Below, one piece after another: positions 6,150 to 11,114 of a DNA stretch of 64,000 bases (its first letter is position 1; each line of letters starts with the position of its first letter). This stretch comes from Hyphomonadaceae bacterium (lineage in GTDB: Bacteria > Pseudomonadota > Alphaproteobacteria > Caulobacterales > Hyphomonadaceae). Location: NCBI GenBank assembly GCA_947474455.1, contig CANJIL010000003.1, positions 62,001 to 126,000 of the forward strand. Direction: 5' to 3'. The notes under the pieces are model-generated. The model had not been told where the DNA came from, made no database searches, and worked only from the letters and a program-made list of their open reading frames with translations. A program made the position numbers and the translations under genes.

Positions 6150-7451
6150 ATGACCGCGGAAGCCACTCAGTCTGATGATATCCCCTCGGCGACCGCCGGC
6201 CAGCAGCGCTACACCGCCATCGCCATCGCCCTGCACTGGGCCATCGCACTTCTCATAATCGGGATGATCGCCGTCGGCTGGATCATGGAGGCGATGCCCG
6301 GCGGGCCCGGCAGCCCGAAGATCGCGATCATCCAGATCCACAAGGCCGTGGGCATCACCATCCTGATGCTCACCATCGCCCGCATCATCTGGCGCGTGAT
6401 GAACCCGCCGCCCGCCGAACCGCCCATGCCCAAATGGCAGAGCCTGCTTGCTAGCTCGGTCCACATTCTTCTCTATGTCCTGATGGTCGCCATGCCCCTC
6501 ACCGGCTGGATCATGGCCTCCGCCGAGATCGACCAGCACGACACGCGCTATTTCGGCACGTTCGAGATGAACGTGCCCGGCATCCCGGGCCTCCCCGCCG
6601 AAACCCGGGAAGGCATGGCCGATGGCTTCGAGCAGGTTCACTCGAACCTCGCCTGGGTCATCATCGGCCTGCTCGTCCTCCATGTCGCCGGCGCGGTGAA
6701 GCACCAGTTCATCGACAAGGACGGCCTCCTCGCCCGCATGGCGCCGGGTCTTTTCGGCCGCACGGCAGGCCCGGTCGATGATGGACAGGGCGGAATCTGG
6801 GCCTTCGGCGCCGCCGCGCTGATCTTCGCAGCGATCGCCGGCGTCTCACTCTCCGCGCCGTCAGCTGGCACCGCGCCCACAACCCCCGCGGCCGAAGAAA
6901 GCCAGACGCCCGTCTCGAACGCACCCGCATGGACCGTGGATTATGAGAAGAGCGCGATCCTCTTCCGCAGCGGCTACATGGGCCAGCCCTTCGAGGGCCG
7001 CTTCTCCAAATGGACCGCGCAGATCCAGCTCGACGCCGCAGCCCCCGCCAATCCCGACAAACCGATAGACGGCTACATCCGGGTGGTCATCCCCATGTCC
7101 TCCGCACAAACCGGCGAGCCTTACTACGACGAGAATGTCGGCCAGGGAGACTGGTTCGACGTGGCCAAACACCCCGAGGCCGTATTCGAAGTCACCGGCG
7201 GCGTCTTCAAAGATAGCGATACTCAATATGAGGCCACCGGAATCCTGAAGCTGAAGGGCGTGGACCACCTCGTGCGCCTCCCCTTCACGCTCAAGATCGA
7301 CGGCCAGACCGCTACGGCCCACGGCGAGACCACGTTGAAGCGCCTCGCCCTCGGCGTCGGCGCCGAAACGCTGACGGAAGCGAAGGGCGACGCCGAGTAC
7401 GTGCAGGACGACGTGCTCGTCGTCATCGACATCGTCGCGACCCGCCAGTGA
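6150..7451 (+). CDS. Cytochrome b561 / YceI domain fusion protein
   Basis: N-terminal b561-like TM region (RYTAIAIALHWAIALLIIGMIAVGWIM, HKAVGI, VLHVAGAVKHQFIDKDGLLARM) followed by C-terminal YceI domain (WTVDYEKSAILFRSGYMGQPFEGRFSKW...). Confidence 0.9.
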   Translation: MTAEATQSDDIPSATAGQQRYTAIAIALHWAIALLIIGMIAVGWIMEAMPGGPGSPKIAIIQIHKAVGITILMLTIARIIWRVMNPPPAEPPMPKWQSLLASSVHILLYVLMVAMPLTGWIMASAEIDQHDTRYFGTFEMNVPGIPGLPAETREGMADGFEQVHSNLAWVIIGLLVLHVAGAVKHQFIDKDGLLARMAPGLFGRTAGPVDDGQGGIWAFGAAALIFAAIAGVSLSAPSAGTAPTTPAAEESQTPVSNAPAWTVDYEKSAILFRSGYMGQPFEGRFSKWTAQIQLDAAAPANPDKPIDGYIRVVIPMSSAQTGEPYYDENVGQGDWFDVAKHPEAVFEVTGGVFKDSDTQYEATGILKLKGVDHLVRLPFTLKIDGQTATAHGETTLKRLALGVGAETLTEAKGDAEYVQDDVLVVIDIVATRQ

Positions 7452-8732
7452 GTCCGGCATCGAGACGCTGCAAGACTCAGATTCGTGACTCGCGATTCGT
7501 CCCCGCGAGATCTCTTCGAAAGTCGAAATCGGCGCCTCGCGCGTCCGCGCCAGGCGCCAAAACTGTGTTCATGATGTCACAGCGCGAAGTCGAAATGCAC
7601 CTCATCGAGTCTCTCGCGACGACCTCCGCCCGACGCCTCGCGAGCCTCTCGCGGCGCCTTCGCGGGCGCCGCAACGCGACCTCAAGCGGGCTCGAAATTC
7701 AATGACATCTGATTCAGAAAAAACCTCGCGCGGACCCGCCCGCGTCCTCGGCGCCGACCCCGCAGCGCTCGCCGAAGCCGCGCGCGTGATCCTCGCCGGC
7801 GGGCTCGTCGCGGTGCCCACCGAGACCGTCTACGGACTCGCCGCGGACGCCACCAACGGCGCCGCCATCGCCTCGATCTACACAGCCAAGGGACGCCCCT
7901 CTTTCAACCCGCTCATCTGCCACGTCGCGGACCTCGCGATGGCCGAGTCCTTGGCTCACTTCAGTCCCCTCGCGCGCCGCCTAGGGGAGCGCTTCTGGCC
8001 CGGCCCGCTGACGCTCGTCCTGCCTCGTGCGCCCGGATGCCCCGTGCACGACCTCGCCACCGCCGGCCTCCCCTCGATCGGCCTGCGGGCGCCGCAACAT
8101 ATTGCAACTCTTGAAATTATTCGGCGCGTCGGCCGTCCGCTCGCCGCCCCTTCAGCCAATCCGTCGGAACAGTTGAGCCCCACGACAGCGGCCCATGTGG
8201 CCGCCGGACTCGGCTCACGCATCGACCTCATCATCGATGGCGGGCGGTGCTCCGCGGGCCTCGAGTCGACCATCATCGCGCCCGGCGAAGACGGCGCCGT
8301 GATGCTCCGCGCGGGCGCTCTGCCGCGCTCCGATATCGAGTTGCTCACAGGCCCGCTGAGGTCTCCGGACCACGCCGCGGACATCGTCGCGCCCGGCATG
8401 TTGAGGCGCCACTACGCCCCTCGCGCGCGTCTCCGACTCGGCGCGACCGCGCCCGAATCCGGAGAGGCCTTCCTCGCGTTCGGGCCGCCGCCGCGCGGGG
8501 TTTCACCTTCTCTCAATCTTTCGATTCGAGGCGACCTCGCCGAGGCCGCCTCGAACCTCTTCTCGATGCTGCGTGCGCTCGATGAGAGTCACGATGCGAT
8601 CGCCGTGGCGCCGATTCCGGAGAGCGGACTCGGAGAGGCTCTCAACGACAGATTGAGAAGAGGTGCTGCACACTCGCGCGAAAATGAGTTATGACAGATT
8701 CGTTGAGTCGGAGTTCCGATCGGAGATGACTC
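7450..8732. promoter_or_regulatory. Dense cluster of GANTC (CcrM-type) sites spanning tsaC and both flanks
   Basis: GANTC starts counted by eye at 7450, 7474, 7480, 7487, 7494, 7607, 7711, 7835, 7945, 8207, 8263, 8435, 8455, 8523, 8586, 8613, 8627, 8697, 8705, 8728. Confidence 0.6.
7702..8694 (+). CDS. tsaC: L-threonylcarbamoyladenylate synthase (TsaC/Sua5)
   Basis: VPTETVYGLAADATNGAAIASIYTAKGRPSFNPLICHV, SANPSEQLSPTTAAHV, plus C-terminal Sua5-like extension. Confidence 0.92.
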   Translation: MTSDSEKTSRGPARVLGADPAALAEAARVILAGGLVAVPTETVYGLAADATNGAAIASIYTAKGRPSFNPLICHVADLAMAESLAHFSPLARRLGERFWPGPLTLVLPRAPGCPVHDLATAGLPSIGLRAPQHIATLEIIRRVGRPLAAPSANPSEQLSPTTAAHVAAGLGSRIDLIIDGGRCSAGLESTIIAPGEDGAVMLRAGALPRSDIELLTGPLRSPDHAADIVAPGMLRRHYAPRARLRLGATAPESGEAFLAFGPPPRGVSPSLNLSIRGDLAEAASNLFSMLRALDESHDAIAVAPIPESGLGEALNDRLRRGAAHSRENEL

Positions 8733-8796
8733 AACTTCACTGGATGCAAGTCCGCTAGCGGGCGACCATCCGAGGGACCACTCAAGGAGACTTAGA

Positions 8797-8880
8797 ATGG
8801 CCACTGCCAAAAAAGCTGCGAAGAAGCCGGCGAAAGCCGCCGCCAAAAAACCGGCGAAAGCTGCTAAGAAGAAGAAGTAG
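8797..8880 (+). CDS. 27-aa Lys/Ala/Pro-rich histone H1-like peptide
   Basis: MATAKKAAKKPAKAAAKKPAKAAKKKK*, preceded by AAGGAGA; not in ORF track because of length. Confidence 0.6.
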   Translation: MATAKKAAKKPAKAAAKKPAKAAKKKK

Positions 8881-8972
8881 TAGCTAAGCTCTTCGCATTC
8901 GGCAGCCAGTCCTTGGCCAGTGCCCCACCCAACTAGGGGCCGCCGAATTCCCAGAGACTAGAGTAGCATTCC

Positions 8973-9004
8973 TCGTGCCCGCCCGGTCCTCCGGGCGGGC
9001 ACGA
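8973..9004 (+). terminator. Perfect 14-bp stem, 4-nt loop hairpin downstream of the Lys/Ala-rich peptide gene
   Basis: TCGTGCCCGCCCGG-TCCT-CCGGGCGGGCACGA; only a weak T-rich tail follows (ACTCTTTC). Confidence 0.65.
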
Positions 9005-9130
9005 ACTCTTTCAGAGCCTGTGTTGCAGGCATTTCACAGTGCGCAGCCTGTGCATAACATCCCCCCTCGCGCCCCCCCCGACCGGCGCCAGGAGCCACGC
9101 GCGCGTCTGTCTCAACACACACCGCTCAGG

Positions 9131-9336
9131 TGAGGGATATCGAAAGAGCTTTGCCGTGCGCGCCCTCACCCAATCCCGACCGCCCAACCTTTACGAACGC
9201 TTCACCTAGCCTGCTCAGGGGGAGCTGCAGGTCACGCTTGCGCACGAAATGAGGGATAGAACGGTGTCAGACTCGTAGGATGGTCAAAAATCGTCCCGCC
9301 CTATCTCAAAAGCGTGGCTCGAAAGAATGAGGGATA
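9131..9336 (+). repeat. Three copies of TGAGGGATA in a CDS-poor intergenic region
   Basis: TGAGGGATA at 9131, 9250 and 9328; last two share the GAAA...ATGAGGGATAG context. Confidence 0.4.
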
Positions 9337-10076
9337 GGGCCCGCCAGACGCCACCGGCCTCCGAACTGACAACATACTCTACCCATGTTCCAGCTCTTGC
9401 TGGCCCTCGTGCGCATTCTCTTCCCGCTAGACCCCGTGCTGTCCCAACTCCCCGGAGTCACGCGTTCTGCATCACGAACCTACTCGAAGACCTCGCCACG
9501 CCCGACCGGCTTCAGCCTCTCGAAACCTGCCACGACTGCCGCATGCGCCTCCAAGGCCAGATCGCCTCCGCCCAAGACCGCGTTGAGCAAGCCAGCCATG
9601 AACGTGCCCGCCAGATCGAAGGCCTCCCGTGCGTATTCGTAACGAGAAATCGCCAACACCCGCGGCGCCAAACGCATTAAGCTCGAATTGGCAAAGAATG
9701 CTTCGTATCGATTTGTCGGTGGGCGTGGCAGCCCCTCGTCTCGGCGCGAAGACGCGCCGATCCACTTCCCCGGTGCTTGGTGCTGAGGGAGGCAATTCCA
9801 GCTCCCGTCCGTTCCCCGCCATCTGAAATCCACCCCCCTCGCCCTCACCTGCGTGGTCGCCACCCGCCTCCGCCTACCCCTGTCCGCACAGTAAACGTCC
9901 ACCACTTATGCAGAAAAAGCCGCCGCATCACGGGCGTTGCACAGATGACATTCTGCTTTCGCTAGAATTCAGGCCCAAACTCCCCCTGTGAGGCAGAGTT
10001 TTTGAATTGTGGCTGCCTGCCCGCAAGGCTAGTGTCTACAGCCTGCCGGGTGGGCGAGTGGTGCGGGACCTTTCCG

Positions 10077-11114
10077 ATGCTTGAGATCGTCGCGATTATC
10101 GGCGCAGTCCTTGTCGGACTGCTGCTCGCCTTCCTTGTCTATCGTGCGGCGCGCACCTTCGACGCTGGCACGCACGCCACCTATATCACGACGAAGGGCG
10201 GTAATTTTTACGGCGCCCTGCGCCAGCCGACCACGCTTTGGGATCCGTCGATCAAGGTCCTGCGCGATCGCCATGCGCCCGACATCACCATCATGACGGT
10301 CGACCCTTCCGGCAGTTATCACGAGAAGTCGCTGGTCAATCGCCGCAATGGCGAGATTTCCCTGCGCGTCCAGACCTGCGCGCCCCGCCCCTTCACGGCC
10401 CGCACCTCCGACAAGCGCCAGCTCATCATCAAGCCCAAGGTCTCCTTCCAGATCGACATCGACCGGATCGAGATGCCCACCCAGATGCAGTCCTTCGGCA
10501 CGACCCTCGCCGCCCGGATCGAAAACCTGTTCGACAACGCCATTGGCGCGCTTGAAGACCAGGACGTCTTCGCCCAGCAGCGCGAAATCGAGGAAAAAGT
10601 CCTCCGCCAGCTGCAGGACTTCGAAAACCCGACCGACCCGGAGCACCCCCTCGGCATGCCGATGGGCATCCGCATCTATGAGGCGATGTTCTCCTATGAA
10701 CCGGCCCAGAAGCCGATCAACAAGGACATCTCGAACGGACCCATGGCCTACGACAACGAGCATCTCGACGATCTGGTCGACATGCTTGAGAAGGCCAACC
10801 CGGCCACGATCGAAGTCCTGATGCGCATGCTGGAGCTGCAGACCAAGCAGAACATCGTCCAGATGCTCTGCAAGTCGGGCGGTCTCGTCGCCTTCACCGC
10901 GTCGGAACTCGGGCTTTCGGAGCGCACCGTTGACCGCGCCTCCAACGGCGCCAACATCATGAAACCCGCAGCATATCCGCCAGCTGAATCGGCCGTCCCG
11001 GCGCTGAACGGCGCAATCGCCGGTCCGGTCGCCCCGCCCGTCGATCCGGCGACCGCCTATTACAATCTCGGCGCGCCCAAGGGTCAGAAGGCTGATCCCG
11101 TGAAGCCGACCTGA
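10077..11114 (+). CDS. SPFH/band 7-like membrane protein
   Basis: N-terminal TM MLEIVAIIGAVLVGLLLAFLVYRAARTF followed by band-7-like region; ORF extends upstream to 10002 but ATG at 10077 gives a clean TM N-terminus. Confidence 0.6.
   Translation: MLEIVAIIGAVLVGLLLAFLVYRAARTFDAGTHATYITTKGGNFYGALRQPTTLWDPSIKVLRDRHAPDITIMTVDPSGSYHEKSLVNRRNGEISLRVQTCAPRPFTARTSDKRQLIIKPKVSFQIDIDRIEMPTQMQSFGTTLAARIENLFDNAIGALEDQDVFAQQREIEEKVLRQLQDFENPTDPEHPLGMPMGIRIYEAMFSYEPAQKPINKDISNGPMAYDNEHLDDLVDMLEKANPATIEVLMRMLELQTKQNIVQMLCKSGGLVAFTASELGLSERTVDRASNGANIMKPAAYPPAESAVPALNGAIAGPVAPPVDPATAYYNLGAPKGQKADPVKPT

Follow-up and report, generated by a model that had tools for sequence, protein, structure and literature searches.

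In E. coli, the protein SeqA binds clusters of GATC, and these dense adenine-methylation sites are hemimethylated after replication. To our knowledge, no protein binding hemimethylated clusters of GANTC in a SeqA-like manner is known. GANTC-rich promoters and loci are themselves already known from Agrobacterium. In A. tumefaciens, six GANTC sites lie in the 250 bp preceding gcrA, and their methylation lowers promoter activity, while the repABC loci are GANTC-rich both in their promoters and inside repC (PMC11514494). The GcrA target ranked strongest in Caulobacter, with three GANTC sites, lies within a gene and covers the coding sequence of the N-terminal part (PMC3667746).

The locus described here surrounds tsaC and lies in a stretch of 64,000 nucleotides (64 kb; "the window") from the genome of a Hyphomonadaceae bacterium. 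Like the gcrA promoter of A. tumefaciens, it has dense GANTC in the approximately 250 bp before a chromosomal gene of an alphaproteobacterium with an orphan CcrM and GcrA (PMC11514494); however, the gene is tsaC, and the cluster runs through the coding sequence into the next promoter. As in the repABC/ori2 modules (PMC11514494), GANTC is clustered in both promoter and coding sequence, although those modules are replication and partition loci, whereas the tsaC locus is without replication genes. With the GcrA/CcrM promoters of Caulobacter (ftsZ, mipZ and podJ), whose sites are methylated in that organism, it shares the location of GANTC near promoters and the conservation of GcrA and CcrM (PMC3667746, PMC3973325), but in the examples of this type compared the sites number only one to three; the GcrA papers searched do not mention tsaC in their main text. 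The site density is comparable to that of a Caulobacter-type oriC cluster, from which the tsaC locus differs in its mid-arm position in a relative, in containing no origin and in being spread over 1.3 kb. The SeqA/GATC system of E. coli is similar in its dense adenine-methylation sites and different in motif and methylase. A cluster this long, crossing an essential gene and kept by number rather than position, found no match in the literature searched (most subscription journals lay outside the search).

The source genome (3.29 Mb in 103 contigs) has Hyphomonadaceae metagenome-assembled genomes, UBA7672 among them, as its closest named relatives, which agrees with the Caulobacterales setting that an earlier note on this DNA had assumed in invoking CcrM. 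A ccrM gene is indeed present, together with gcrA. CcrM is encoded in full length at C23:31295-32461, has N6_N4_Mtase and RAMA domains, and matches the CcrM of PDB entry 6pbd (E = 7e-180) and the Caulobacter equivalog model NF050803 (E = 6.7e-189, yet below the curated cut-off); GcrA was recognized by PF07750 (E = 6e-51).

In the window, 20 GANTC sites were counted in 7450-8732, at 7450, 7474, 7480, 7487, 7494, 7607, 7711, 7835, 7945, 8207, 8263, 8435, 8455, 8523, 8586, 8613, 8627, 8697, 8705 and 8728. Every position claimed in the earlier note (20 sites in about 1.28 kb, five of them in 7450-7498) was recovered, including the three in 8697-8732 ahead of a gene for a Lys/Ala-rich protein, whose start is at 8797. 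Its expectation of one site per about 300 bp was, on the other hand, too high for this genome, in which the background is 1.71/kb (genome-wide figures are from a 603-kb random sample and whole-genome pattern searches). The genome avoids GANTC, and the contrast at tsaC is therefore larger than the note had stated: the density of the cluster is about 7-9 times the background, and 1283-bp windows of the random sample contain 2.18 ± 1.48 sites on average and eight at most, as against 20 at tsaC. Similar densities are thus not common in the genome, and tight triplets of GANTC (gaps of 13 bases or less) are also few, numbering 10 in the whole genome, with two at tsaC and three at the putative oriC by inspection. 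The avoidance is evident in the window as a whole, with 133 sites versus 326 in dinucleotide shuffles, and the rest of the window outside the cluster has GANTC at 0.34-0.46 of expectation; 7450-8732, compared with its own shuffles, has 20 versus 9.8 ± 2.9 (p ~0.001). Among the 197 ORFs of at least 200 aa, tsaC has the highest density (11.1/kb), followed by one with 5.3/kb.

tsaC was found in 60 of the 61 genomes searched, and the gene downstream of it is the same throughout the genus. The cluster is likewise conserved in relatives, with single sites turning over: the 12.8 kb pooled from ten species of the genus (from each, tsaC with about 255 bp upstream and 45 bp downstream) contain 179 sites, with 4-10 sites per species upstream, 6-11 in tsaC and 2-3 just downstream. 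Over flanking DNA, GANTC is enriched 9.0-fold in these ten species and ranks first of the 256 gapped words of the form XYNZW. The ten pooled genomes share ancestry, so that the pooled counts are not independent tests. The pooled locus exceeds both the 88 sites of dinucleotide shuffles and the 101 of trinucleotide shuffles, and the maxima in 300 pooled shuffles were 115 and 128, respectively. In contrast, 50 kb of the same window contain 88 sites where 257 (dinucleotide) and 192 (trinucleotide) are expected.

Recently acquired foreign DNA, still unpurged of GANTC, would be a very improbable source of the cluster. Some GANTC-rich places in this genome do look foreign, such as one beside an integrase on contig C69, but the near-universal presence of tsaC and the identical downstream gene across the genus do not fit such an origin, and the density is above that of unpurged DNA with this composition; conserved synteny and the excess over composition rule the idea out. 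The place on C69 (L100:1185-1420 in G000:C69), next to an integrase-like gene, is itself probably foreign DNA from which GANTC has not been purged, and within its GANTC-rich DNA the core motif of 8697 recurs in reverse complement, as GACTCAACGAATC.

Part of the excess can be put down to composition and to a protein prone to GANTC. It is conceivable, though on balance unlikely, that the cluster is a by-product of lost GANTC avoidance, of TCG/CGA-rich DNA upstream and of residue pairs of TsaC that happen to spell GANTC, only the invariant pair downstream being functional. The local di- and trinucleotide content predicts roughly half of the sites (88-101 of 179), and TCNGA, the runner-up among the gapped words, is also enriched over the flanks (2.6-fold); however, an approximately 1.8-2-fold excess is left after both kinds of shuffle, whose maxima stay well short of the observed count. 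The upstream part alone also lies above its trinucleotide shuffles (67 sites pooled versus 37.6 ± 5.0).

A by-product is still plausible for the body of tsaC (7702-8694, plus strand), which contains 11 GANTC sites and was identified by profile matches as the gene for a Sua5/YrdC L-threonylcarbamoyladenylate synthase (PF01300, E = 4e-52; PF03481, E = 4e-20; TIGR00057 of NCBIfam, over the cut-off). From genome codon usage, 5.8 sites are expected in the window species alone (p = 0.003), whereas the gene's own codons predict 8.3 of the 11, a difference that is not significant in this single species (p = 0.1). The coding sequences of the ten species pooled contain 92 sites versus 51.6 expected from genome codon usage, a 1.8-fold excess that speaks against a by-product, while in the deep-branching G002 and G014 and in other genera tsaC has GANTC at codon expectation, as a by-product would have it. 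Codon preference, which the earlier note had put forward as a possible sole cause, was therefore exceeded in the pooled nulls and stands for part of the tsaC body; codon and amino-acid content account for part of the count there and not for the whole locus. Three offsets (9, 561 and 925) are common to all seven species aligned, and the others have been gained and lost. Several of the sites use codons that are rare in the genome (GGA, 10%; CGA, 8%; AGT, 4%; ACT, 8%), and at offset 884 GANTC outlives a Ser/Thr replacement by way of AGT versus ACT, both of them rare.

The region between 7450 and 7701 (plus strand) is noncoding, is presumed to be the promoter region of tsaC and contains the six sites from 7450 to 7607. 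In the pooled species it has 24 GANTC/kb, as against 1.6/kb in the flanks, and the positions of the sites drift between species while their number is kept. In G002 and G014 the upstream cluster is absent and the downstream pair is present. Alignment and genome search revealed an invariant 15-mer, TTCGCGGGCGCCGCA (7659-7673, plus strand), which stands just upstream of tsaC in 10 genomes of the genus and occurs in 0-2 copies per genome overall, and a GTGAC/GTCAC-like dyad also lies within this region. A consensus sigma-70 promoter could not be recognized ahead of tsaC, and the aligned relatives gave no supported RNA fold and no covariation there. An 85-aa ORF at 7448-7705, apparently open in most relatives, overlaps both of its neighbours (GTGA with the upstream gene, ATGA with tsaC). 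We do not accept it as a gene, since its divergence is free of codon-position bias (0.40, 0.37 and 0.38 at the three positions, versus 0.16, 0.12 and 0.38 in tsaC) and the frame shifts in three relatives; the region diverges like synonymous sites, with no codon phase. This ORF is liable to mislead annotators.

Just downstream of tsaC, ahead of the Lys/Ala-rich gene, is a nearly invariant double GANTC site, GATTCGTTGAGTCG (8697-8710, plus strand). It is found at this place in all 12 genomes of the genus whose contig spans it and also in G023, which belongs to another genus; elsewhere it is very rare in whole-genome pattern searches. A dyad of GTTGAGTC (8702-8709) and GACTCAAC (8728-8735) extends across two GANTC sites (8702-8735, plus strand) and may be a stem in the leader RNA or an operator. 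In RNAalifold one of its pairs is changed on both sides, from UA to CG in two genomes, with a covariation term of about 0, which is weak. Pairing of GUUGAGUC with GACUCAAC in the mRNA leader of the small gene would make the three downstream sites incidental to an RNA stem, and most of 13 genomes do have the dyad, G002 and G014 being the two with the exchanged pair. We regard this as highly unlikely: apart from the negligible covariation, G023 disrupts the stem yet retains GATTCGTTGAGTCG, the conserved 14-mer reaches beyond the stem on its 5' side, and the third site (8728) is not retained in most species. Conserved triplets of GANTC also occur in members of the genus at genes whose translations, judged by eye, look like ruvC and a UPF0262-like gene (L148:1687-1719 and L145:1738-1761 in G008).

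The small gene itself (8797-8880, plus strand) encodes a protein of 27 aa, MATAKKAAKKPAKAAAKKPAKAAKKKK, behind an AAGGAG ribosome-binding site. Its start, Shine-Dalgarno sequence and protein are kept in 13 genomes, with protein lengths of 23-82 aa, and the 82-aa protein of G023 has a weak match to the HC2 histone H1-like family (PF07382, 1e-7, below the curated cut-off). The gene is followed by a structured 3' untranslated region (8881-9011, plus strand) with two hairpins and, at its end, a terminator-like stem (8973-9004). Its fold has 39 consensus pairs, 14 of them with compensatory changes among 12 genomes, and includes a perfect 14-bp inverted repeat; no Rfam family matched this structured RNA, and no known RNA family was found for it. 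The approximately 1.2 kb from 8881 to 10080 contain no convincing gene but have AATGAGGGATAG twice (9248 and 9326) and the related GTGAGGGATAT near 9131. The 344-aa ORF farther downstream (10080-11111) has no match in Pfam or NCBIfam.

An extension of GANTC to YGAKTCG/K has been proposed as a preference of GcrA-activated promoters, though not of all GcrA sites. This extended motif is present at 0.43-0.48 of the sites versus 0.12-0.14 in the background and is frequent at the upstream sites. Its abundance upstream is due to the local richness in TCG: beyond local composition YGAKTCG is not enriched there, TC outside GANTC being followed by G equally often. At the downstream sites the excess of the extended motif is slight.

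The second-densest place that we saw in the source genome, and the sole other one found with a density comparable to that at tsaC, is C12:18406-18829, with 11-12 GANTC sites, 11 of them within about 270 bp, and a TTAA-N7-TTAA box of the CtrA type. It lies between genes resembling ppsR/maf and hemE/hemH, a setting that we take to be the origin arrangement of Caulobacter, and because of this gene arrangement it is probably oriC. Its GANTC cluster is likewise kept in the genus. This pairing invites the thought that tsaC carries an element for hemimethylation-dependent binding or titration in the manner of SeqA/datA of E. coli, at which a protein bound to the dense hemimethylated sites behind the fork would delay re-initiation, titrate GcrA or CcrM, or organise the nucleoid. 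The sites span the whole gene, and their turnover at steady density fits a need for number rather than position. However, a SeqA-like reader of GANTC has not been described to date, the cluster is restricted to one genus, and tsaC is at neither the origin nor the terminus: in the closed genome of G023 (a chromosome of 3.40 Mb) it is about 976 kb from hemE, approximately 57% of the way toward the opposite pole and thus mid-arm. As an element of a replication origin or terminus the locus was also rejected, there being no skew switch, dif or KOPS switch in the window and no adjoining origin genes. Such a binding or titration element therefore seems distinctly unlikely, and it is at least as doubtful that the chromosome has at tsaC, in addition to oriC, another GANTC hot spot, kept up despite site turnover over the full length of an essential gene and acting as the alphaproteobacterial GANTC counterpart of SeqA/datA control. 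For the nucleoid region suggested in the earlier note, we obtained no evidence.

The cluster is probably genuine, an element that senses how the DNA is methylated once replication has passed. The reading that we prefer, with a probability of about 0.5, is that of a conserved multi-site CcrM target, in which the promoters of tsaC and of the small gene would be sensitive to methylation state through CcrM and GcrA and would be joined by a dense intragenic extension. The outer parts of the cluster would serve as promoter regions, one for tsaC and the other for the small histone-H1-like gene. Passage of the fork would leave all GANTC sites of the stretch hemimethylated together, pending the action of CcrM late in the cycle. 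This switch might be read by RNA polymerase together with GcrA or with some other methylation-sensitive protein, which would bring the expression of both genes into step with replication. The eleven sites inside the coding sequence are not needed by a promoter switch and speak against it; they may extend the stretch that is bound or make the switch sharper.

GANTC is avoided across CcrM-bearing genomes, and the retention of 15-20 sites per 1.3 kb despite turnover suggests that selection acts on how many methylation sites there are. The tsaC locus thus offers a defined place at which to ask whether hemimethylation by CcrM is read by site number, in genes as well as in promoters, and whether the synthesis of t6A in tRNA and a small H1-like protein may be tied to the replication cycle.
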